Virus record (IMG/VR): IMGVR_UViG_3300017788_000192
Coordinates: 1 to 22,449 of that record
DNA: 22,449 nucleotides
Source: a virus
Reading direction: 5' to 3' (one strand)
Each line of letters starts with the position of its first letter. Position 1 is the first letter of the stretch. The translations under genes were made by a program, and so were the position numbers. Below are positions 2,609 to 17,721 of the stretch, piece after piece. The notes under the pieces were generated by a model that was not told where the DNA came from, searched no databases, and saw nothing but the letters and a program-made list of their open reading frames with translations.

Positions 2609-3349
2609 GTGAAAATTGCTCTATTACTAACTGGATACATGAGGAATTGGGAAGACCACTTCCCAAATATCCAGGAAAATATTATAAAAAAATATAACGC
2701 CGACGTTTATATCAGTTCATATAGTTATTCAGAACTTTACATGGGTTCTGGAATAGTACAAATTGACACTAAAAAAGTTATAGAGGCATACAAACCAAAA
2801 GAATATCTTTTTAGAGATGTGGAGACATTGCCACTATTTAACTTTAAAGATGGTGGATTGGAAATCAGCGGTAGAGAATGGTCTTACAGAATATTAAGAC
2901 AATGGTATACAAATTATCTTGGATTACGATTATTCGATCCTAGAGATTATAATACCGTCATTAAATGTAGATCCGACTTTTCAATTAAAAATTTTAAATT
3001 GCAACCAGATAAAGATCTAGTTTTACCAACATGGAAGGTTCATCCAGGTCCATGTAATCCAGAAGACTCTTACGTGGATTACTTTGCACATGGAAATGGA
3101 TATTGGATGAAGAAGTATCTCAAATTATATGAACGAACAAAAGAGATGCATGATAATGATTGGGGTGATGTCTCACTAGGAGAGACCCTAATCAAATCAT
3201 ACATCGATAGGTATATTGGTTCCGAACATATCACATTAGATTATGATATGGATTGGAAAATGAGAGATGAACCTTGGATGTCTGAGGTTCAAAGCATCTA
3301 TAAAAAATACGATCCTACTAAAGTTGTAACCACTGAGAAGGGTGAGTAG
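2609..3349 (+). CDS. Glycosyltransferase-like protein (246 aa)
   Basis: The N-terminus VKIALLLTGYMRNW is the first beta strand and turn of a Rossmann-type sugar transferase domain, which favours the GTG at 2609 over upstream in-frame codons that would run into the neighbouring minus-strand gene. Residues 117-124 (VIKCRSDF) carry an R-S-D where such phage proteins have a DxD-like metal/nucleotide-sugar motif. Further conserved-looking stretches are WKVHPGPC, DYFAHG and DWGDVSLGETL. I recall similar proteins in marine phages labelled glycosyltransferase, with no proven substrate. It is the only plus-strand gene between 1 and 17239, and its last 32 bases overlap the oppositely oriented oxygenase gene. 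It probably modifies a virion or host glycan; this is inference. Its promoter is unclear, though CATAAATC at 2576-2583 is a weak late-like match. Confidence 0.55.
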   Translation: MKIALLLTGYMRNWEDHFPNIQENIIKKYNADVYISSYSYSELYMGSGIVQIDTKKVIEAYKPKEYLFRDVETLPLFNFKDGGLEISGREWSYRILRQWYTNYLGLRLFDPRDYNTVIKCRSDFSIKNFKLQPDKDLVLPTWKVHPGPCNPEDSYVDYFAHGNGYWMKKYLKLYERTKEMHDNDWGDVSLGETLIKSYIDRYIGSEHITLDYDMDWKMRDEPWMSEVQSIYKKYDPTKVVTTEKGE

Positions 3350-3995
3350 ATCCTTGATGGTAATCTGGATTAAATGGATTTAAAGTAACTCTAATATCTC
3401 CAGGAATAACTAGTCTTTCTTCTTTTCTTTCAGCAAACTTTTGAGTAAAATGTCCCGTTTTACTAGGAAAGATTAAAACACTACCCTCAATAGGAGTAAT
3501 ACTATAAACATTACAATTATATCGATTATACCCAGTAATTAAATTCTTTTGAATTGCTTCAGTAAACATATCACCAACACATTCATTGGGATTCTTTTCT
3601 TGGGCAATGCAGAACTTGTCGGAAGTCTCACCTGTGCTTACATAATAAACAAAACTCAGATCTGAAGCGTTATGATTGTGCGGTTTTACTGATGGGGTTT
3701 CATCGTCTTTGTGATAACCAACCCAGGATTTAATGATATGGTAATCTAACTTTGAGTGATCAACACTCAAATAATCAAAGTAATTATCAACATGAGTCCG
3801 AAGTTCTTGAAAGAATGGTTTGCAGGACTCTTTTTGGTGTGCAAAAATTCTTCCAGAATATTCTGGACTCTCGTTCTGATACCCATCAAACCAATAGTCA
3901 CGAAGTTCATCAAGATGATTTTTGATTTGTTCATGACACTCCACCATCCCCTGGTAAACAATCAGAGGGAACGCTTCATGTACTCGGTGCATCAC
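3318..3995 (-). CDS. Putative 2OG-Fe(II) oxygenase (225 aa)
   Basis: The pattern fits the small phage/marine 2OG-Fe(II) oxygenase type. It has an aromatic strand SWVGYHKDD (90-98), then PHNHNASDLSFVYYV (105-119) with His106/His108 and the following strand, then SVLIFPSKTGHFTQKF (172-187) with the distal His182. A C-terminal basic strand follows, with Arg194 or Arg202 as 2-oxoglutarate ligand candidates, and ends in an Asn (VTLNPF). Length suits the family. The start overlaps the stop of the preceding gene by 4 bases; a second ATG directly follows the first. The 3' end overlaps the glycosyltransferase-like gene on the other strand. Hydroxylation of a phage or host protein or small molecule is plausible, with the substrate unknown. 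Confidence 0.6.
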   Translation of the reverse strand: MMHRVHEAFPLIVYQGMVECHEQIKNHLDELRDYWFDGYQNESPEYSGRIFAHQKESCKPFFQELRTHVDNYFDYLSVDHSKLDYHIIKSWVGYHKDDETPSVKPHNHNASDLSFVYYVSTGETSDKFCIAQEKNPNECVGDMFTEAIQKNLITGYNRYNCNVYSITPIEGSVLIFPSKTGHFTQKFAERKEERLVIPGDIRVTLNPFNPDYHQGSTHPSQWLQL

Positions 3996-4639
3996 TTACC
4001 GTTGATATTATATTCCCTATTATCTCCTGGATAGTCTGCTGGTGTCAAGCCCTGATATTCAGAAATATTCTTTGAGGTATCAATACGTTCACCATAAACC
4101 ACATAATCGCAGTTAATAGCAGTTCCCGCATTATTCTTAACGTAAATTTTATCACCCCATTCAATACAATCTACAAATAATTCTTGCCAATGACCATTTG
4201 GAGTAAGATTGATAACAAGAGTCTCCATATCAACAAAGTCTTTCCAATAATCTGGAAGTTGAATATAGGACTGCTCTACCAATTTACCCTTTAGATACAC
4301 ATCTGCAGTTGGTCCTTCTAAACAAATATATCTAAGACGATGGTCTTTTTTAGTGGGATGCTGAATATCAAATGACTTTTTGGCATCCCAAATGGCAGAC
4401 TTTGCATTCAAAGATCCAACCGCAGCGGTTTTAACATCTTGTGCTTGAACAAGTGCATCTGCCTTAAGATTACCAACCTTAACATTATAGTGAATCCAAG
4501 GAGTACATGCTTCTGCTGGATAATCAGGATCTCCTGTAGTTGATTTTAAAATATAATCAAACTTACTAGAAAAAGGTCCAGTAATACCCTCATCAAGACA
4601 GGTACTTTTATTAGTAAAATCTGGTATAAATTCTGCCAT
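3992..4639 (-). CDS. Virion fibre/tip-like protein, paralogue of the upstream gene (215 aa)
   Basis: The C-terminal domain (about residues 86-184) starts with AKKSFDIQHPTK and continues through RLRYICLEGP, DVYLKGKL, LPDYWKDFVD and INLTPNGHWQELFV. This K-x-F-I-x-H-P ... E-G-P ... V-x-x-x-G pattern recurs at the ends of many marine phage fibre and structural proteins. The same blocks, in the same order, occur in the upstream gene, as does the C-terminal signature TPADYPG-x-N-x-EY (199-210). The short N-terminal part (1-85) differs more. It starts 2 bases after the upstream stop. A peripheral baseplate or short-fibre component acting in host contact is likely. The domain family is recognised; the role is inferred. 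Confidence 0.6.
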   Translation of the reverse strand: MAEFIPDFTNKSTCLDEGITGPFSSKFDYILKSTTGDPDYPAEACTPWIHYNVKVGNLKADALVQAQDVKTAAVGSLNAKSAIWDAKKSFDIQHPTKKDHRLRYICLEGPTADVYLKGKLVEQSYIQLPDYWKDFVDMETLVINLTPNGHWQELFVDCIEWGDKIYVKNNAGTAINCDYVVYGERIDTSKNISEYQGLTPADYPGDNREYNINGK

Positions 4640-4641
4640 AA

Positions 4642-5415
4642 TTAAATGCTCTTGGTATCATAATGAAATCCAGATACAGAATATTCATCATTATTGCCAG
4701 GATAATCTGCTGGTGTTGACCCTTCATATTCTGGAATCAACTTTTCTCCGTCTTTACGCTCACCAAAAACATGATAATGACAATTTATCGGTGTAGATGC
4801 ATGAAGGTATACTTTATTATCTGAGATTTCTCTAACAATAATATTTTGATGCGTTCCTACTGGAGTAATTGAGACTGTAATACTATTAGAATCTACCAAC
4901 TCTCTCCAGTATTCTGGAAGTTCAATTATGCTTTTATTTTGTAATTTACCCCTTATGTATACATCATTAGATGGCCCTTCTGGGCAAGTATGACGTAATC
5001 TCCAACCATCTTTTGTTGGGTGAGGAATATCAAAATTCTTTTTAGCGGAAAGGATATGTCCACCACAACGGGACATGACTTCACCTTGAGTAATTAGATT
5101 ACCACCAACATTTACATTATCATTTGTATCAATAACTCCCAAAAATGCTGCTGGTCCATCAACAGCTAATGAATAGGGATTATTGATTCCAGTACATAAT
5201 GCTCCAGGAATTAAAGGAGGAATTAGTATATCTGAGTTTTCAACTGGACCTACCATTAAGGTAGCAGTAAGAAATGGTGGAATTGAACCAAAAATTCCTG
5301 GTCCTTCACAATAAAATCCACCTCTAGTTTGCAAGGGACCTTTACCCAAAACTAAACTAGGATCACCAATACCACAATAAAAAGTCTTTTTTACCTCTAA
5401 ATCAGGAACCTTCAT
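4642..5415 (-). CDS. Virion fibre/tip-like protein (257 aa)
   Basis: I chose the ATG at 5415 over an in-frame ATG at 5451. It lies one base after the upstream stop, is preceded by GGAGG (5427-5431), and gives an N-terminus (MKVPDLEVKKTFYC) of similar size and layout to the paralogue downstream (MAEFIPDFTNKSTC). Residues 35-120 are Gly/Pro-rich beta repeats with PFLTATLMVGPVEN and AAFLGVIDTNDNVNVGG, like a fibre shaft. Residues 124-220 form the recurring marine-phage fibre domain: KKNFDIPHPTK, RLRHTCPEGP, YIRGKL, LPEYWRELVD, ITPVGTHQ. The tail TPADYPGNNDEY is shared with its neighbour. It probably forms a trimeric fibre or spike-associated protein at the baseplate. Confidence 0.62.
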   Translation of the reverse strand: MKVPDLEVKKTFYCGIGDPSLVLGKGPLQTRGGFYCEGPGIFGSIPPFLTATLMVGPVENSDILIPPLIPGALCTGINNPYSLAVDGPAAFLGVIDTNDNVNVGGNLITQGEVMSRCGGHILSAKKNFDIPHPTKDGWRLRHTCPEGPSNDVYIRGKLQNKSIIELPEYWRELVDSNSITVSITPVGTHQNIIVREISDNKVYLHASTPINCHYHVFGERKDGEKLIPEYEGSTPADYPGNNDEYSVSGFHYDTKSI

Positions 5416-5416
5416 G

Positions 5417-6004
5417 CTATAAAATTCCTCCAGTTTTTTGTTGACCTTCAAATTTTGAAATCCCTTTAGATGGCTTCAAGGTTGTACAAGAATCAGCACA
5501 ATCAATTAGTCCACCATAAAAATTAAGACATCCGTTTCCTACTAATTCAAGTATCCCAGAACATAAAATTTTGGCAACAGAATCAATATTTGCTTCAAAA
5601 TTCTTTGATGTCAACTTAATTTTTTCATTACCCTCAATGTTAACATATCCTGTTTTATTGCCACTTCCATTGGCAATAATGTCAATCATTTTTGCCTCTA
5701 ATCTAATTCTACCCAAGGGGGCAGATATTGAAATATCACCATCGGAAGATCTCAACATAAATCCCATATTATCTACAGGTTTCATTCCACAATGAATTTG
5801 ATAAACCCCAGGACAGCGATTAATTGTACTACCCTTCATCTTTCCAGAAGATCCAAACATCAAATATTGTTCACATGGCATTCCATGTGGTCCATTTCTC
5901 AATAAAACACCTGCATGAGTATTATTAAGATTAATATGACCCAATTTCAAGTGCCCATAATTGCTACCCAGTTCTACTGGGTTATGAAGTTTTGGTTTTC
6001 CCAT
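5417..6004 (-). CDS. Beta-helix spike-like baseplate protein (195 aa)
   Basis: From about residue 83 the chain is a run of short alternating strands, GDISISAP, GRIRLEA, IDIIANG, GYVNIEG, EKIKLTS, ILELVGNG, NFYGG. This resembles the triple-stranded beta-helix of T4 gp5 C-terminus and VgrG needles. The N-terminal part (1-80) contains GVLLRNGPHG and several Cys/Met residues and could be a cap or attachment domain. The start codon overlaps the stop of the gp5-like gene (TAATG), suggesting translational coupling and stoichiometric assembly. I infer that it supplies the membrane-piercing needle that the long gp5-like protein itself does not show. It could instead be a minor fibre. Confidence 0.5.
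   Translation of the reverse strand: MGKPKLHNPVELGSNYGHLKLGHINLNNTHAGVLLRNGPHGMPCEQYLMFGSSGKMKGSTINRCPGVYQIHCGMKPVDNMGFMLRSSDGDISISAPLGRIRLEAKMIDIIANGSGNKTGYVNIEGNEKIKLTSKNFEANIDSVAKILCSGILELVGNGCLNFYGGLIDCADSCTTLKPSKGISKFEGQQKTGGIL
5427..5431 (-). promoter_or_regulatory. Shine-Dalgarno GGAGG deciding the start at 5415
   Basis: GGAGG on the minus strand lies 11 bases upstream of the ATG at 5415. No comparable site precedes the alternative ATG at 5451, which would also overlap the upstream gene by 35 bases. Confidence 0.6.
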
Positions 6005-8400
6005 TAGTCAACTCTTCCTACGCAATCGACGATTCTAATAACTTTAAACTTGTCTTTATCTGGTATTTCTCCAACTTCATCGTCACCAATTCTTCTTACA
6101 CAAAAAACTGGAACAATATTTGCATTATAACCTGTTTCAGATTTAATGTAAATTTCTGGTCTTTCTGTAAACCCATTACCAGAATTTATAATTCTAAGAG
6201 AAGACACTGTACCAAAAGGTCCAAATTTTACTTCAATCTCAGCACCACCAAGATTAGGTTCAATAACAACTTGATCCCCTTCAGAATAATTTAACCCATA
6301 ATTATCAACATACAAATCACACAAATATAGTAAAGCAGGATAACTACCAATATTAATTACTGGGAATGCATCAAATTGAGTTGTACCATTTGGTCCAGTT
6401 CCAGGTATTCTAGTTATACCCCTTGCATCTGCAATTTGATCTCCAATTGGTTGCCCAGCATTATTATCACTTCCAAATCCTGGGGTAACAAGTCCACCAG
6501 GACCAATTACAGGTAATCCACCCTCTAAAACTTGGCGATCTTCTGGTCTAATTATAGTATCTCCTGGGCGTTCAGGAATTTCAGCTCCTGGGGGATATTG
6601 TTCCCAGCGACCATCAGGAGTCCTAACAACTGTATTTTGTGCAGGAGACCAAATTCTTCCATCTCCACCCAAATCACCATCTGGTCTTGTTGGATAATCT
6701 CCACCAGGAGTTTCTATTACAACCTGCACAACTTGTTGAGTTGGCAGTCCAGTATCTGGATCTGTTCCTCCATCTGGTTCTGTAATTGCAATTGCATTAA
6801 CTCCCGACCCCTTACCACAATTATCAGAAATATCAACAAAAGGAGCTTTTGTATATCCAGCACCCCTAGCAATAATATCTACACCTAAAATATCTCCAGC
6901 AGCACTTACAATTACATTACCTGTCGCTCCACCTCCACCACCGCCACCCCAAAAAGTAACTTGTGGAGGACCACAAAAAACAGGACCAATATTACAACCA
7001 TCAGTTGCACTAATAGCACTATTAATTAAATCACTAAAGTCTACTGCAGCGGCAACTGTATCAATTAATCCAGAAGCACTTCCAACAAGACCCAACGCTT
7101 GATCCGCAACTCCTTTAGCGGAATTTATAATCGAATCAATATCAAAAATTGCTGATGGTTTTCCGCCTTCAAAAATATTCCATTCTTTTGTTTCTGGACA
7201 TTCTTGATCTTCCTCACAAGCAAAAAATCCAGCAAGTGCTTTTAAAATGTTTAAAATAGAATTAGCAAGGCTGAATACACCACCAATCAATCCAGATACT
7301 GAACTAATGATTGCATCAATTGCTCCAGCAATTCTTCCTATGGTATTGCCCAAAAGGTCTGCAATAAAATTTGCGACTGCACAAGCTGGAACATTGATGT
7401 AACGATCAAAAATTTGATTAAGAAAATTACCAACCATTTTGAAAAGATTTTGGATCAACTTGTTAAACAAACAAGTAATCAACTCCATTAAAGCATCATG
7501 ACCAACTTTAGCTTTATCTCTGTCTGGGGGATTTATATTCTCATATAATTTTTTTGTCTGTTTGTTTATTTCTTCTTCAATATTTTTACGAATTTCTTTA
7601 AATACCCATTTAATTCCTTGAGTAATAAAGTCTTGTGCTTTTTGAGTTTTTTCTTGAATCCATGCTTGCTTTTCACCAATCCAACCTTGAGCAGCAGTTT
7701 CCCATTCACCTAATTGCTTTTGTGCTTTTTCAATTTGCTGAATTAACTCCTGCATTGACTTCATAATTCCATTCAATGGAACCTTTTCACATTCAGTTGG
7801 AGAAGAAAGACCGTAAGTAAATTCCTTCATCAAATTAACATCAGATATTCCCCAAAGATTAGGTAAATTTGCACCCTCTAAAGCATTAAAACCCACACCA
7901 AGGTTCAAGGCAGGAACATTGAATCCAGCAATCAAATCTGTATTCTTATATCCACTGTATGCCTCAAACCCAGTTTTTGGGGTTCGTGGTAAAGCAACAT
8001 GTTCATTAGTAGGATATACTCCTGTAAGTATTGGACCAGTCTTACGCACAGGATCGGACCAAAATCCATAAACTCTAGACCCCTGTGTTGGTCCTCCAAT
8101 TAAAACGGCTCCACCTTGACCAGACATAGGACTTAAACACACTTCTACATCTGGAAGTTTTTCATCTGGAAGTAATTTTTTATCTGGATGAATATCATCT
8201 ATTCTAACTTTTACATGAGTACCCCAATTACCAACTTTACAAACATTTGGATTTTTAGTACCCTCCTCCTGTTCATTTGTAGACCACGTTTCTCTGGGCG
8301 CAACTGTTCCCTTCCACCTAATTCGATCTAAAGAAGGATCATCAATAATATTATATGGTACGTTATTAAAATCGCTTGCAGTTAATTTTATATCTGACAT
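6004..8400 (-). CDS. 5: gp5-like baseplate hub protein with OB-fold, no lysozyme domain (798 aa)
   Basis: Residues about 25-150 look like the gp5/VgrG OB-fold: RIRWKGTVAPR, THVKVRIDDIHPD, VEVCLSPM, SRVYGFWSDPVRKTGPILTGVYP. A long helical part follows, with a charged coiled coil (212-290) and hydrophobic Ala/Gly/Ile helices (302-395 and 425-465). After a seven-glycine tract (485-491) come four beta modules with the signature G-x-x-Y/F-T-x-x-P (513-520, 566-573, 702-709, 741-748), similar to those in gp53. No T4-lysozyme-type E...D...T catalytic region is seen, although T4 gp5 has one. It sits between the gp27/CP12-like genes and a spike-like gene, the expected hub context. The hub assignment is fairly secure; what the hydrophobic helices do is unknown. 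Confidence 0.7.
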   Translation of the reverse strand: MSDIKLTASDFNNVPYNIIDDPSLDRIRWKGTVAPRETWSTNEQEEGTKNPNVCKVGNWGTHVKVRIDDIHPDKKLLPDEKLPDVEVCLSPMSGQGGAVLIGGPTQGSRVYGFWSDPVRKTGPILTGVYPTNEHVALPRTPKTGFEAYSGYKNTDLIAGFNVPALNLGVGFNALEGANLPNLWGISDVNLMKEFTYGLSSPTECEKVPLNGIMKSMQELIQQIEKAQKQLGEWETAAQGWIGEKQAWIQEKTQKAQDFITQGIKWVFKEIRKNIEEEINKQTKKLYENINPPDRDKAKVGHDALMELITCLFNKLIQNLFKMVGNFLNQIFDRYINVPACAVANFIADLLGNTIGRIAGAIDAIISSVSGLIGGVFSLANSILNILKALAGFFACEEDQECPETKEWNIFEGGKPSAIFDIDSIINSAKGVADQALGLVGSASGLIDTVAAAVDFSDLINSAISATDGCNIGPVFCGPPQVTFWGGGGGGGATGNVIVSAAGDILGVDIIARGAGYTKAPFVDISDNCGKGSGVNAIAITEPDGGTDPDTGLPTQQVVQVVIETPGGDYPTRPDGDLGGDGRIWSPAQNTVVRTPDGRWEQYPPGAEIPERPGDTIIRPEDRQVLEGGLPVIGPGGLVTPGFGSDNNAGQPIGDQIADARGITRIPGTGPNGTTQFDAFPVINIGSYPALLYLCDLYVDNYGLNYSEGDQVVIEPNLGGAEIEVKFGPFGTVSSLRIINSGNGFTERPEIYIKSETGYNANIVPVFCVRRIGDDEVGEIPDKDKFKVIRIVDCVGRVD

Positions 8401-8404
8401 CTAT

Positions 8405-8617
8405 TCAATCATCGTAAACTTTACATTCTGATGCACTTGGATGAAAATCGCAAAACAACTCTAAAGATGTTGGATCATGATTATCTTCAGGATGACGTAT
8501 CTGATAAGATTCCAAATCCCTCAATTCTTCTTCAGTATGACGACGCATCTGTGGAGAGATCGTTGGATCATCAAGAATTTTTTTGTCGGTATCAATGTGT
8601 TGTTGAATGTTATCCAT
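8405..8617 (-). CDS. CP12-like small protein (70 aa)
   Basis: The last 21 residues, TSLELFCDFHPSASECKVYDD, follow the C-terminal signature of CP12, the disordered cyanobacterial/chloroplast protein whose C-terminal tail enters the GAPDH active site and bridges it to phosphoribulokinase. The two cysteines (56 and 65) have the same 9-residue spacing as CP12's redox pair, followed by the V-Y-D-D end. The N-terminal half (HIDTDKKILDDPT, RRHTEEELRDLESY) is charged and helical, and it lacks the first Cys pair of full CP12. It lies 9 bases after gp27's stop and 4 before gp5. It may be a metabolic regulator made with the late genes, or a virion or chaperone protein that kept the motif. The motif is clear; the function is inferred. 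Confidence 0.65.
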   Translation of the reverse strand: MDNIQQHIDTDKKILDDPTISPQMRRHTEEELRDLESYQIRHPEDNHDPTSLELFCDFHPSASECKVYDD

Positions 8618-8626
8618 AGAATTAAC

Positions 8627-9922
8627 CTACTTTGGTTTTCTGCCGTAAGAATCCCTAATCAAAATCATTTTAGTCATACATTGTTTAGGTGTCAAGTGAT
8701 GGCAAATATCCTGTATGATATATATGCCACTTAATTCCTTATTTGCAATTGTTTCCTTTTTGGAAGATTGCTCTGGAAAATCACAATGAACCAGTTGTCC
8801 TGCTCTTAAAGACAAATCTCCAACAACTGCAATTTCAACAGATAAATTAAATATTTTATTATATGTCATTGCAGATTGAACTAAAATATCTGCGGACTTT
8901 AAATTCTCTTCAGTCTTTTTCTCCAATTGCCGACCCCTATTTCCTGGGGCAACTTGTCCAGTATCTTTCCTATAAGTAAATCTCTTAGTTAAATCACCGT
9001 AAATACTGAACTCTGAGGGTATTTTAGGTAATTCTTGCCCACCTCTTGGTTTTTGTTCTTCACTCTTTACTTCTTTTGCTTTGGGAGTATAAACTTGATT
9101 ATATGGATCATATGCTGTTAGTCTTCCACCATATGCTCCAGCATTTAGATTTTTTTTAACATCTATTGTTTTTATAGACTTATAAGCAATAATTTTTGAA
9201 TCATATCCAGGTGGTAGTAAAGTACTACTATTGTAAATAAATGATTTTTTGGGAGATCCTTCAAATAATTTATCAATTGATTTAAAATTAAATCCATCAT
9301 AAGTTTCAAAAATAAAATATCCAGCAGAAGACTTCGATCCAACTGGAATTGCTAGTGTTGCTATTTCTGCACAAAACTCAAATGCTGGTTTACCAGAACC
9401 ATAGAGACCGATCTGATTTGATGTTTGATCGCTAATAATCTTCTTTTTAGTTTTTAAAACTTCTTTTAAAATAATACTAACAGACTGAGATAATTCACCA
9501 TCAAATTTTTGATAAACTTCACACTTTAAAAAATCACTTGCTAAATCCTCTATTGAGGCAAGGTCTATCGTATAAAGAACAGTCTCTGATGATGAGATAA
9601 CATTCTCAATTTTACTAATATAAAGTGCATTACTACCAGCAAATTTTAATTTATTATTATTATTATCTTCAAAACTTAATTCAACTTTTTCAAATCCAGA
9701 TAATTTCAATTTATATAAAATTGCAATATCATTTCCCGCAGAACTATGACCTGTCTCTAAAATTATCAACCTAAACCGCACAGATGTATCCAAAACACTT
9801 TCAAAATAAGAGAGATCTTGAATTAATGCCGATATGTCTTGAGAACCGCCACCCCTATTAGAGGTAACAACACACTTTGTTATATTGCCAGATAATCCTT
9901 TTGTATTTGCAGTTGCTGCCAT
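8627..9922 (-). CDS. 27: gp27-like baseplate hub protein (431 aa)
   Basis: The length is close to T4 gp27 (391 aa). The N-terminal domain has tube-like strands (GNITKCVVTSNRGG, SVRFRLIILETG), and residues 60-130 and 330-425 contain the paired beta barrels expected of gp27/gpD-type hubs (VELSFEDNNN, LSVEIAVVGDLSLRAGQLVHCDFPE, GIYIIQDICHHLTP). The C-terminal piece ...GQLV... followed by Y-x-I-x-x-x-x-H-x-L resembles late-control-D-type hub proteins. A less ordered Lys/Pro/Gln-rich loop lies near residues 280-300. In the particle it would form the trimeric ring joining the spike protein to the tail tube. Position between the long tail proteins and gp5 fits. The call rests on fold pattern and context. 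Confidence 0.6.
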   Translation of the reverse strand: MAATANTKGLSGNITKCVVTSNRGGGSQDISALIQDLSYFESVLDTSVRFRLIILETGHSSAGNDIAILYKLKLSGFEKVELSFEDNNNNKLKFAGSNALYISKIENVISSSETVLYTIDLASIEDLASDFLKCEVYQKFDGELSQSVSIILKEVLKTKKKIISDQTSNQIGLYGSGKPAFEFCAEIATLAIPVGSKSSAGYFIFETYDGFNFKSIDKLFEGSPKKSFIYNSSTLLPPGYDSKIIAYKSIKTIDVKKNLNAGAYGGRLTAYDPYNQVYTPKAKEVKSEEQKPRGGQELPKIPSEFSIYGDLTKRFTYRKDTGQVAPGNRGRQLEKKTEENLKSADILVQSAMTYNKIFNLSVEIAVVGDLSLRAGQLVHCDFPEQSSKKETIANKELSGIYIIQDICHHLTPKQCMTKMILIRDSYGRKPK

Positions 9923-9934
9923 TTTTAGAACTTA

Positions 9935-9949
9935 TATTTACTATTTAAC
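9935..9949 (-). promoter_or_regulatory. Possible late-promoter-like tandem TAAATA
   Basis: On the minus strand GTTAAATA (9949-9942) and AGTAAATA (9942-9935) both carry the TAAATA core of the T4 late element, 13 to 27 bases upstream of the gp27-like ATG at 9922. The first overlaps the stop codon of the upstream gene. This is weak evidence in AT-rich sequence. Confidence 0.25.
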
Positions 9950-12900
9950 CAACTAAACTTGTGGGATCTTTTTCTAATATCTTTAATATAAACACATGGT
10001 CAACACCATCATCATATGATGTTCGTCTTCTTAATAATCCAATATCTTGAGATCTTGATCCACCTGTTGATGGTGCTAATGAACTACTCGTTCCATCATT
10101 TAAAAATATCCACTTACCTCCAACCCACTTATAATAAGAACCATCTGCTGCTTGCTTGGTTTCTCCTTCCGTTTTACCAGTTCCCAGTCCAAATCCCTTA
10201 ACTGTTGCTCTAAGATTTGTATTTTGGGTATTTGTTACAGCAACTGCTTGATTAGTTCCTAAGACACCACCACCCAATTGAATAAATTTACCATCTCTGT
10301 ACACTACACCTTTGTTTTGAGTATTTGCAGGTTTTGCTGCTGGTTTTGGTGCTACTGATTGTAAATAACCAGTTGGATCTACCGCTGTTCCAGCAAATCC
10401 AACTCCACCCATTCTATATTCTAAATGGAGGTGAGTATTGTCTCCAGGGGGAGCACGATATTCTCCTTTTTTCCAAGCTTTAACTGTAGCAATTTTATCT
10501 CCTTTTTTAACTCTTTGACCATCTTTTACTGTTGGATTAACGTGACCATATAATGTTGAATTTCCATCTCCATGATCAATAACAACAGCTTGTCCATGAG
10601 ATCCCCAAGTAGCATTACTAATAATTCTGGCAACACCATCACTCAAGGATAAAACTCTAGAACCAGCATCAACACCAATATCAATTCCTTTATGATCAGG
10701 AGAACCCCAGTCTATAGTTCTTGGATCATATCCACTAGTTAATTGGGGATTTCCTTCTGGTAATACAGCTTTGAATTGAGCACTAGTTAATTTACTTGGT
10801 TTTGGTGCTTTAGAACTTTGCAATACAGACATGACCTGATTGGTCCAGTTGGGATTTGTATTGTAATATCCAGGTCCACCATGTAATCCTTGTCGTATAC
10901 TTTCAATAACTTCTCTATCATCTTTTCCCTTATAAGATTGTTTCCAACGATCAACGTGTGCTTTAACGCCTTCTTCAAGGTCATTATAGACTGCATGTTC
11001 TTTTCCGTCCTTACCAATTACAAATCCTTTTGGACCTCTACCTTGTTGCCCAAATGGATTTGTCTTTCCACTTGCAAAATAAACACTATCAGGATTTGCC
11101 AACCACCCACTTTCAAGCATAGCAATTGCAGCAGTTACTGATGGATTGGGCGATCCTACCTTTTCAGCTATTTTTTTAATTTTTTCAAACGCTGCTTGTT
11201 GATTTGCATCCAAAGGTGTCCCACCACCACCATAAGGATCATTAAATGGTCTATCACCGATTCTAATAATAGATGCTAAAGATCCTAAACTTCCAATATC
11301 TTTATCCAAGGCTTTTTCTATGCCTCGCATAAATCCCGCCATCTGTTCATTTTTTCTTCTTATCTTTACATCTCTACGCAAAACTTCTCCACCACCAGCA
11401 AGTGCTTGGAATGATTTTGTAATATCAGCACCAGCAGCGTCTGGATATTCAGATATCATTGACATTAAAGAAGCAAAACTTTTAGCAATGTCCTTTTTAG
11501 TTGACTTAGATGGTTTTTGCCCCAACACGTAATCAACACCCAATGACATAATTTTACCCATAATAGAACTTCCAGATCTCTTTAGACGTTCTGAAGTGGC
11601 AACTAAAGTTGAAAGGGGTTTTTGTCTTACATCTTTTGTTCCATACAAATCTTGAATGGATCTACCACCAGATGATTGACCAACACTAACTTTACTAATC
11701 TTTAATTTTTGAATCCGAACTGGTTTTGGTTTTTTTCTTTTTACATTTTTACCTGGGTCTCTACCAGTTCTTTGTGTAATTTTTCCACCTGAAGATCTTC
11801 CTTCAATCTTTCCTTGTTTTGAGTTTGCCAAAACATTATAAAGACTTACTCCAATTTGATCTCCAATTAATCCTCCTATTAATCCACCAATCGTAGCTCC
11901 TGCAGCACCCGCAAGAAGGTTGCCAATAACTGGAACTACAGATCCAGCAATACCACCAATAGTACCTCCTACCCATGCACCAAGAGCCTGTCCAACTCCA
12001 GCACCAACTGCTCCTGCTGCTGCTTTACCTAAAGGTTCTTCAAAAACAAAACGACGAATACTAAAATCAATTATAGGTCCTACAATTGGGATTCTACCCG
12101 CAATTCTACCAACATTTTTACCAGCAACTTTGGTTACTCCCCGTTGAACTAGTCTCTGATCTAATCCACGAGCAGGTCTAGATGTTTGCCCCTTAAGTCG
12201 TTTTAAATTTTTATTACCAAATCTATCAGAATATTGGCGATCACCAAATCTTCTTTGGTATCTTCGTTGTGCGGTATCACTAACTCTTCTACCAGATCGA
12301 TCAAACCCTCTTCTTTGTGGTCCTTGGAATCTTCTATCTCTAAGTGGATCTTGTCCACCCATTGTTGCCATTCCCGCAATAATTGCGAGATTCATAAATT
12401 TAGTAAAGGTGCTTGTAAATTCACTAAACTTCTTTTCACCATCATCACCAAACAATTCTTTAACTTTAGACTGAGCACCATCTACAATTTTATATCCAAG
12501 ATCTATGGCAAAGACAAATTTATCAAACATTCCTTTGACAAAATCTTCAATAAACGCCGTAACTGGTTTGACATAATCCAAAAATTCTATCAATTTTGGC
12601 AACAGTTTGAATATCTGCATGACCAAAAAACCAGCAAAAACCGCTCCTAAAAATTGTTTTATTCGATCAATAAAACTCATTCCAGGAATAGGAATCTTTG
12701 GCATTCCTATTCTTTTTTTATCCTTCTTTTCTAACTTGTCTTCTTGTGCCTTTCTTTTTTTATTCTCATCCTCCTTTCTACTAAGTTGAATTTTTTTAAC
12801 ATTAATTTTAATAGTTTTTTTGAGAATATCCTCAATCTTAACAACCTTCTCACGAATAACTTTAATATCTTCGATTACTTGCTGCTCAGGATCACTTAAA

Positions 12901-13052
12901 TCATCCTCTTGAATTTGCTCAGATAGATCTACAGTTTGTTTATATTCTGTATTTTTAACAGGAACCAAAAACATTTTTGGTTGTGCAACAAGAGCACCAC
13001 CGCCACTATTACTTGAAGAATTTAATAGTTTTTTGGGATCAATCAATGCCAT
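9945..13052 (-). CDS. Large tail protein with glucosaminidase and M23 peptidase domains (1035 aa)
   Basis: Order of parts: an N-terminal Lys/Glu coiled coil (60-115); hydrophobic helices (125-160 and 215-235); an Arg-rich stretch (236-320); a glycine-zipper hydrophobic segment (343-401); Gly/Lys linkers; a FlgJ-type glucosaminidase/lysozyme-like domain (about 618-745) with AMLESGW placing Glu647 as catalytic acid and NPFGQQG; then an M23/LytM endopeptidase (about 770-900) with HKGID (His787, Asp791), LYGH (His837) and HLHLE (His874, His876), the complete zinc set. It would cut both glycan strands and peptide crosslinks of murein while the tail penetrates the envelope. It starts one base after the stop of the tape-measure-like gene. 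It may be a second tape-measure part or a tail-tip lysin. Domain calls are strong; the tail role is inferred. Confidence 0.75.
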   Translation of the reverse strand: MALIDPKKLLNSSSNSGGGALVAQPKMFLVPVKNTEYKQTVDLSEQIQEDDLSDPEQQVIEDIKVIREKVVKIEDILKKTIKINVKKIQLSRKEDENKKRKAQEDKLEKKDKKRIGMPKIPIPGMSFIDRIKQFLGAVFAGFLVMQIFKLLPKLIEFLDYVKPVTAFIEDFVKGMFDKFVFAIDLGYKIVDGAQSKVKELFGDDGEKKFSEFTSTFTKFMNLAIIAGMATMGGQDPLRDRRFQGPQRRGFDRSGRRVSDTAQRRYQRRFGDRQYSDRFGNKNLKRLKGQTSRPARGLDQRLVQRGVTKVAGKNVGRIAGRIPIVGPIIDFSIRRFVFEEPLGKAAAGAVGAGVGQALGAWVGGTIGGIAGSVVPVIGNLLAGAAGATIGGLIGGLIGDQIGVSLYNVLANSKQGKIEGRSSGGKITQRTGRDPGKNVKRKKPKPVRIQKLKISKVSVGQSSGGRSIQDLYGTKDVRQKPLSTLVATSERLKRSGSSIMGKIMSLGVDYVLGQKPSKSTKKDIAKSFASLMSMISEYPDAAGADITKSFQALAGGGEVLRRDVKIRRKNEQMAGFMRGIEKALDKDIGSLGSLASIIRIGDRPFNDPYGGGGTPLDANQQAAFEKIKKIAEKVGSPNPSVTAAIAMLESGWLANPDSVYFASGKTNPFGQQGRGPKGFVIGKDGKEHAVYNDLEEGVKAHVDRWKQSYKGKDDREVIESIRQGLHGGPGYYNTNPNWTNQVMSVLQSSKAPKPSKLTSAQFKAVLPEGNPQLTSGYDPRTIDWGSPDHKGIDIGVDAGSRVLSLSDGVARIISNATWGSHGQAVVIDHGDGNSTLYGHVNPTVKDGQRVKKGDKIATVKAWKKGEYRAPPGDNTHLHLEYRMGGVGFAGTAVDPTGYLQSVAPKPAAKPANTQNKGVVYRDGKFIQLGGGVLGTNQAVAVTNTQNTNLRATVKGFGLGTGKTEGETKQAADGSYYKWVGGKWIFLNDGTSSSLAPSTGGSRSQDIGLLRRRTSYDDGVDHVFILKILEKDPTSLVG

Positions 13053-17277: not shown

Positions 17278-17721
17278 ATGAACGAAAGTATAAAAAGTAA
17301 GTATAAACCTTCTTACCCACAAAAATATAAAGGGAACCCCAATAATATTATTTGTAGAAGTAGTTGGGAAAGAAGATTTTGTGCTTGGTGTGATTTAAAT
17401 GAAAACATAATTGAGTGGGCAAGTGAAGAATTTTATATCCCATACATATCTCCATTAGACAAAAAAATTCATAGGTATTTTCCAGATTTTATTATAAAAG
17501 TAAAAGAATCTACTGGTCAACTTAAAACTTATGTTGTTGAAGTAAAACCAAAAAGACAAACTTTACCACCAACAAGAAAATCGAGAGTCACAAAATCTTT
17601 TATTTACGAGGCAAAAACATATGAAGTCAATAAAGCAAAATGGAGAGCTGCTGAAGAATGGTGTAAGGATAGAAGATTAGAATTTAAAATCATCACAGAA
17701 GACGAACTAGGAATCAAGTAA
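17278..17721 (+). CDS. 4: gp4-like head completion nuclease (147 aa)
   Basis: The length matches T4 gp4 (150 aa). The layout is that of a PD-(D/E)xK-like nuclease: SSWERRFCAWCDLNENIIEW (28-47) with Glu31, SEEFYIPY, then RYFPDFIIK (66-74) with the Pro-Asp at 69-70, a second acidic/basic motif EVKPK (88-92), and a helix with conserved-looking KWRAAEEWC. In T4, gp4 acts late in head maturation, trimming or sealing packaged DNA so that tails can attach. It begins the plus-strand unit after the divergent gap, and its stop overlaps the next start (TAATG). Family assignment is firm; nuclease activity is known from the family's motif rather than shown here. Confidence 0.9.
   Translation: MNESIKSKYKPSYPQKYKGNPNNIICRSSWERRFCAWCDLNENIIEWASEEFYIPYISPLDKKIHRYFPDFIIKVKESTGQLKTYVVEVKPKRQTLPPTRKSRVTKSFIYEAKTYEVNKAKWRAAEEWCKDRRLEFKIITEDELGIK

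Follow-up and report, generated by a model that had tools for sequence, protein, structure and literature searches.

The window analysed here is a stretch of viral DNA of 22,449 bases, in which an open reading frame whose product ends in ECKVYDD, and which contains Cys56, Pro60 and Cys65, lies between two genes assigned to the baseplate hub. In cyanobacteria, CP12 serves to shut down carbon fixation, and cp12 is a common metabolic gene of marine and freshwater cyanophages, the only such gene thought to brake carbon fixation directly. The features of the locus are as follows.

9942..9948, minus strand: TTAAATA, a T4-late-type promoter box matching the consensus, placed 26 bases ahead of the gp27-like gene; a joint candidate promoter of the gp27-like, cp12 and gp5-like genes
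8627..9922, minus strand: gp27-like baseplate hub protein, 431 amino acids, immediately upstream of cp12; PHROG 350 'tail protein', E = 2.1e-71; its model matches T4 gp27
8405..8617, minus strand: cp12, 70 amino acids, picocyanobacterial/cyanophage-type CP12, assigned by PF02672, PHROG 627 and an AlphaFold2 model
8408..8473, minus strand: 22-residue CP12 tail with the CX3PX4C pair (Cys56, Cys65), aligning with the solved cyanobacterial CP12 tail (6gfo, 3zdf)
6004..8400, minus strand: gp5-like hub/spike protein, 798 amino acids, immediately downstream of cp12; PHROG 1922 'baseplate hub subunit and tail lysozyme', E = 4.6e-61

A C-terminal CP12 signature, consisting of Cys56, Cys65 and the ECKVYDD end, had been pointed out in an earlier note on this DNA and is borne out by the sequence. 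The same note had proposed a Pfam search for CP12, and the PF02672 profile indeed matches the protein, exceeding its 22.7-bit cut-off with a score of 40.9 bits (E = 3.5e-10), with residues 3-69 aligned to profile positions 4-70 of 70. PHROG 627 covers the whole protein (E = 3.6e-30; residues 1-70 on profile positions 1-75 of 75), and NCBIfam gave no match to it at E 0.001. In a tblastn survey conducted at a loose limit of E 10, relatives were found in 443 of 50,697 phage records, 363 of which cover at least 80% of the query. All 443 records are named Synechococcus, Prochlorococcus, 'Cyanophage' or 'Marine', and the best GenBank records are 60-69% identical to the window protein. A chance resemblance to CP12 is ruled out by PF02672, PHROG 627 and the tblastn relatives. 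Pairwise comparisons indicate that cp12 evolves under purifying selection, with dN/dS far smaller than 1. Of the 19 pairs chosen, 16 gave a defined dS, and their ratios lie at about 0.02-0.25; dS was undefined in the other three, and several pairs are saturated. As judged from its sequence, the window gene is a genuine orthologue of cp12 as an auxiliary metabolic gene of cyanophages, and its product is of the picocyanobacterial type that lacks N-terminal cysteines. It is an ordinary member of a known gene kind, to which the window adds one more copy, and the available text of PMC3037559 and PMC3906501 agrees with the earlier note that cyanophages carry cp12 as a metabolic gene.

The AlphaFold2 model of the protein (mean pLDDT 91.7) contains helices at residues 4-16, 22-41 and 51-58. 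Its top Foldseek match in the PDB is a CP12 chain, 6ghl_F, with a probability of 0.77 and an E-value of 0.11 that is not significant, and VIA-align places helices of E. coli RNA polymerase (Z 5.0) level with or above CP12 chain 6gfo_E (Z 4.6, rmsd 5.8). The structural match of the model to CP12 therefore appears weak, which is not surprising for a small protein made of helices.

The gp27-like protein was also modelled with AlphaFold2 (mean pLDDT 82.6, 28 sequences), and the best Foldseek matches to this model are the T4 gp27 chains 2z6b_D (E = 1.2e-20), 1k28_D (E = 1.7e-19) and 9mkb_iC, with a probability of 1.00. Because the model is best matched by T4 gp27 chains, the 'gp27-like' label for the upstream product appears to hold. 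The matched chains come from gp27-gp5 structures. Within the gp5-like protein, the Pfam Gp5_OB domain is weak, scoring 14.7 bits, below the cut-off of 25. On its upstream side cp12 is separated from the gp27-like gene by 9 bases, and on its downstream side from the gp5-like gene by 4 bases, as the earlier note had described in giving a distance of 4-9 bases from structural genes.

Farther upstream lie genes for a glucosaminidase-M23 protein, a T4_baseplate (gp26-like) protein and a tail tube protein. The first of these adjoins the hub genes (9945-13052, minus strand) and encodes 1,035 amino acids with Glucosaminidase and Peptidase_M23 domains, making it a candidate tail-associated lytic protein. 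Two adjacent open reading frames at 3992-4639 and 4642-5451, both on the minus strand, were seen by eye to have a common C-terminal module (RLRHxCxEGPxxDVY ... GERxD ... TPADYPGxN); they are likely a tandem duplication, and neither has a Pfam match. At the end of the tail operon are two genes of the 2OG-Fe(II) oxygenase type, 3-869 and 3318-3995 on the minus strand, matching PhyH (just over the cut-off) and 2OG-FeII_Oxy_5. Genes for tRNA-Thr(TGT) (886-957), tRNA-Leu(TAA) (1321-1404) and tRNA-Gly(TCC) (1651-1721), all on the minus strand, lie near the fragment end, and a TnsA-like endonuclease N-terminal domain (PF08722, E = 1.1e-23) is encoded at 17278-17721 on the plus strand.

The cysteine tail and the N-terminal half of CP12

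In known CP12 complexes, the CX3PX4C tail is the part that enters GAPDH. The tail of the window protein is identical at 11 of 22 residues to that of the solved GAPDH-bound cyanobacterial CP12, and every one of the 129 distinct phage CP12 proteins has retained the CX3PX4C arrangement. An alignment of the window protein with 56 distinct phage proteins and four host proteins has 13 invariant columns, including R26, H27, E31, L32, L35, D48, P49, C56, P60, E64 and C65.

The earlier note had recognized only a CP12-like tail. This view must be replaced, as the whole protein is a CP12 domain, both by the span of its Pfam match and by its alignment with picocyanobacterial CP12, in which all 70 residues align end to end at 47% identity. 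The full-length Pfam match and the host alignment together rule out that the tail alone is CP12 and the N-terminal half something else, and the host alignment likewise rules out that this half is a foreign or truncated part.

The remark that the N-terminal half lacks the first cysteine pair of CP12 is correct for the window protein, which has no cysteine before residue 56. The AWD motif is absent from the window protein, from the 129 phage proteins and from 35 host proteins, and thus neither the N-terminal cysteine pair nor the AWD_VEE core of canonical (N/C-type) CP12 is present in the window protein. CP12 scored above the cut-off in 149 of 150 genomes of the picocyanobacterial order, and the CP12 proteins read at 36 picocyanobacterial loci, 35 of them distinct, all lack both the N-terminal cysteines and AWD. 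Because these host proteins lack the pair too, the sequences indicate that its absence is a host trait, in agreement with the accessible portion of PMC3906501.

The first loop of phage CP12 (residues 16-26, DDPTISPQMRR) is strongly conserved, unlike the alanine-rich host stretch, and may have a phage-specific function.

Placement of cp12 and a possible hub role

The placement of cp12 was surveyed in 159 loci, a non-random sample comprising the window, five named phages and 153 IMG/VR contigs. The contigs are the closest relatives from two scans (76 of 76 and the best 80 of 575, with three duplicate contigs dropped). Gene order was called 'tight' when gaps did not exceed 150 bases, and the surveyed loci themselves supplied the sequences for the HMMs of both hub genes. 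By this measure, the tight order gp27|cp12|gp5 occurs in 94 of the 159 loci, with downstream gaps of mostly -1, 4 or 5 bases. Another 14 have cp12 after the gp27-like gene with gp5 farther away or out of reach, five are consistent with the tight order but interrupted by a contig end, and one, with little sequence upstream, has gp5 1.4 kb downstream of cp12. In the remaining 45, cp12 is away from the hub, at sites that include psbD (locus L023), DNA methylases (L133, L126) and glutaredoxin (L053).

Named phages are similarly divided. Five of 14 have the tight order (DSL-LC02, DSL-LC03, S-RSM4, S-WAM2 and Sf-CH8), and five have cp12 after the gp27-like gene with other genes before gp5 (S-SM1, S-SZBM1, P-SSM4, S-RIM8 and S-MS29); the hub genes of these ten were confirmed by HMM. 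The other four carry cp12 elsewhere (P-HM2, beside talC; S-TIM5; S-SRM01; S-SKS1). The hub position had been presented in the earlier note as unusual, a view that these counts contradict. A unique or recent insertion in the window phage is ruled out by the same order in 94 of 159 loci and in S-RSM4. The location of cp12 'near gp5' is already in print in the available text of PMC3037559. No discussion of the strict gp27|cp12|gp5 order or of a late-type cp12 box was found in the accessible parts of the open-licence literature.

A tree of 136 rows, which rests on 70 columns and leaves many forks open, separates phage from host CP12 with support 100/99. To explain the tight-hub label on this tree takes 21 changes, no fewer than 12 of which are forced by well-supported branches, and therefore cp12 appears to be mobile between genomic contexts, the hub operon being one of several settling places. 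In one case, the protein encoded near psbD (L023) and one encoded in the hub (L031) are identical at 68 of 70 residues. Such free movement makes it unlikely that the protein is bound to a hub role.

These findings bear on two readings in which CP12 belongs to the particle. In the first, CP12 has taken on the task of a structural adaptor that joins the gp27-like and gp5-like proteins, with its cysteines serving assembly. Its position alone speaks for this role, to which we give a close to negligible probability: cp12 lies away from the hub in 45 of the 159 loci, cpeT, oxygenase or tRNA genes after cp12 separate the hub genes in other phages, and S-PM2 is viable yet reported to lack cp12. The conserved tail motif is, moreover, the GAPDH-binding one. 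A structural adaptor role was thus set aside as unlikely, given the non-hub loci, the intervening genes and the retained binding motif.

In the second reading, CP12 is a virion component that is made with the hub, travels inside the tail tip or on its surface and is set free in the next host cell, where the Calvin cycle would be braked before phage gene expression. This idea draws on the tight hub placement, with gaps of 1 to 9 bases or overlaps in many loci, and on virion-associated non-structural proteins reported for cyanophages in the available text of PMC9964418 and PMC10665884. However, the gene enters and leaves the hub with little change in the protein, and the consulted portions of published virion inventories give CP12 no place. 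Table 1 of S-SZBM1 (30 proteins) has the gp27-like SSZBM1_65 and not the CP12 SSZBM1_64, which is weak evidence in that the table lacks the gp5 protein SSZBM1_61 as well. The S-CREM2 virion table, as available, has no row labelled CP12, where the S-CREM2 cp12 is a divergent branch matched by label alone, and the accessible S-SM1 text reports the detection of GC15 and gp5 but does not mention CP12 among the proteins found. The earlier suggestion that CP12 is packaged and delivered with the tail thus finds no support, either in the protein near psbD that differs at so few positions or in the S-SZBM1 list. We consider a virion component very improbable, and the same applies to the proposal that part of the CP12 made late exits in the particle and is active as soon as a new cell is entered.

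Promoter boxes and expression timing

Upstream regions were scanned for the T4-late-type box as [ACT]TAAATA, and the box count covers loci with at least 200 bases upstream. No such box is present in the 100 bases upstream of the window cp12. Across the survey, a box lies at -20 to -40 of the cp12 start codon in 44 of 45 non-hub, nine of 14 gp27-side and 35 of 94 tight-hub loci, such that 59 of the 94 tight-hub loci resemble the window in lacking a cp12 box of their own. By comparison, 72 of 7,950 random 27-base windows hold a box, and control windows 500-600 bases upstream of cp12 hold one in 0/38, 0/13 and 3/76 distinct cases. Among the named phages, a box precedes cp12 in nine of 14 and is lacking in five. 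Some structural genes have a box at a similar distance (S-SM1 gp26 at -28 and gp5 at -29), and TATAAAT is used for late promoters according to the available text of PMC3037559.

Of 39 distinct hub loci that were scanned, 17 likewise have a box before the gp27-like gene in the same position class. Because the window cp12 has no box of its own while a late-type box precedes the gp27-like gene, late co-expression of cp12 with the hub genes is plausible from the sequence. The survey regularity is that non-hub cp12 carries a late-type box and tight-hub cp12 often does not, and late transcription would be expected in both settings. The earlier note had proposed that cp12 is made late with the hub. 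This stands as plausible for the window, but a simple reading is opposed by P-HM2, the one phage with published timing in the literature searched, whose cp12 is classed as 'middle' in the accessible portion of PMC5082946. The P-HM2 gene carries an ATAAATA box plus a sigma-70-like site, and its 'middle' class despite the box means that a box does not prove late timing.

Late timing of cp12 might nonetheless be a general rule in T4-like cyanophages, through either its own Gp55-type box or the hub operon, instead of 'middle' expression, a generalization that we hold to be possible and rather doubtful. If late timing is true, CP12 would shut down the Calvin cycle when virions are being assembled and not when nucleotide synthesis begins. 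Were such timing general, the view that CP12 serves mainly to save NADPH for nucleotide synthesis would have to be reconsidered.

Another explanation is that CP12 is active but not late, being expressed at an early or middle stage from a host-type promoter missed by the box scan, with the hub place neutral. S-RSM4, whose cp12 occupies exactly the window-type hub place, stops CO2 fixation at about 2 h, and S-PM2, reported without cp12, does so at about 4 h (PMC10452541, available text). This difference is confounded, because S-RSM4 also carries talC, gnd and zwf. Excerpts of PMC5931967 further describe psbA upstream motifs with both sigma-70 and Gp55 sites. The 70 bases upstream of cp12 were scored with a simple TTGACA/TATAAT scan, in which at least 10/12 was reached in two of 41 non-hub (L053 with 12, P-HM2 with 10), one of 13 gp27-side and two of 74 tight-hub loci. 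Control counts were 1, 0 and 4, and sigma-70-like sites at cp12 loci therefore occur at about the control rate; the window cp12 scores 8. Non-hub loci average slightly above the control (8.49 vs 7.71). We consider early or middle expression unlikely for this gene.

The sole 12/12 case found, L053 (3905-4117), has a perfect TTGACA-17-TATAAT upstream of a cp12 that lies beside a glutaredoxin gene and has no late-type box at -20 to -40.

Proposed function and comparison with known systems

The best joint explanation, which we consider probable, is that the window gene encodes a CP12 orthologue that is transcribed with the hub operon, inhibits host Gap2 and acts in the cytosol. Its transcription would be driven by the late-type box ahead of the gp27-like gene, on a message that also covers the two neighbouring hub genes. 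By analogy with the CP12 family, the oxidised tail would then enter the NAD site of host Gap2, and this binding would lower Calvin-cycle flux and spare NADPH and ATP for the phage. CP12 would thus act in the host cytosol, whichever site its gene has settled in. A rise in NADPH and expression of cp12 during infection are reported in the available text of PMC5082946, and the earlier halt of CO2 fixation with S-RSM4 than with S-PM2, confounded as it is, also counts in favour of this explanation. No binding or enzyme data for any phage CP12 were found in the accessible literature.

Among known systems, the nearest is the cyanophage CP12 family (PHROG 627; T4-GC337 of Sullivan et al. 2010), represented by S-SM1, P-HM2 and S-RSM4, with which the window protein has full-length alignment and the same cysteine tail in common. 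The gp27|cp12|gp5 place of the window is also that of S-RSM4, S-WAM2, DSL-LC02, DSL-LC03 and Sf-CH8, whereas five of the 14 named phages have extra genes between cp12 and gp5, four have cp12 elsewhere, and the window copy is without its own late-type box. Picocyanobacterial host CP12, as in Synechococcus sp. RCC307 (L085), has the same full length and tail and likewise lacks the N-terminal cysteine pair and AWD. It differs in the first loop, which reads DPTISPQMR in the phage protein and is alanine-rich in hosts (e.g., AAKAQGDEGKV), and the phage proteins form one side of the well-supported branch between the two. The canonical CP12 of Thermosynechococcus, algae and plants (6gfo, 6ghl, 6kez) has the C-terminal CX3PX4C tail in common with the phage protein, which is without the N-terminal cysteine pair and AWD_VEE core that are canonical according to the available text of PMC3906501 and PMC9406205.
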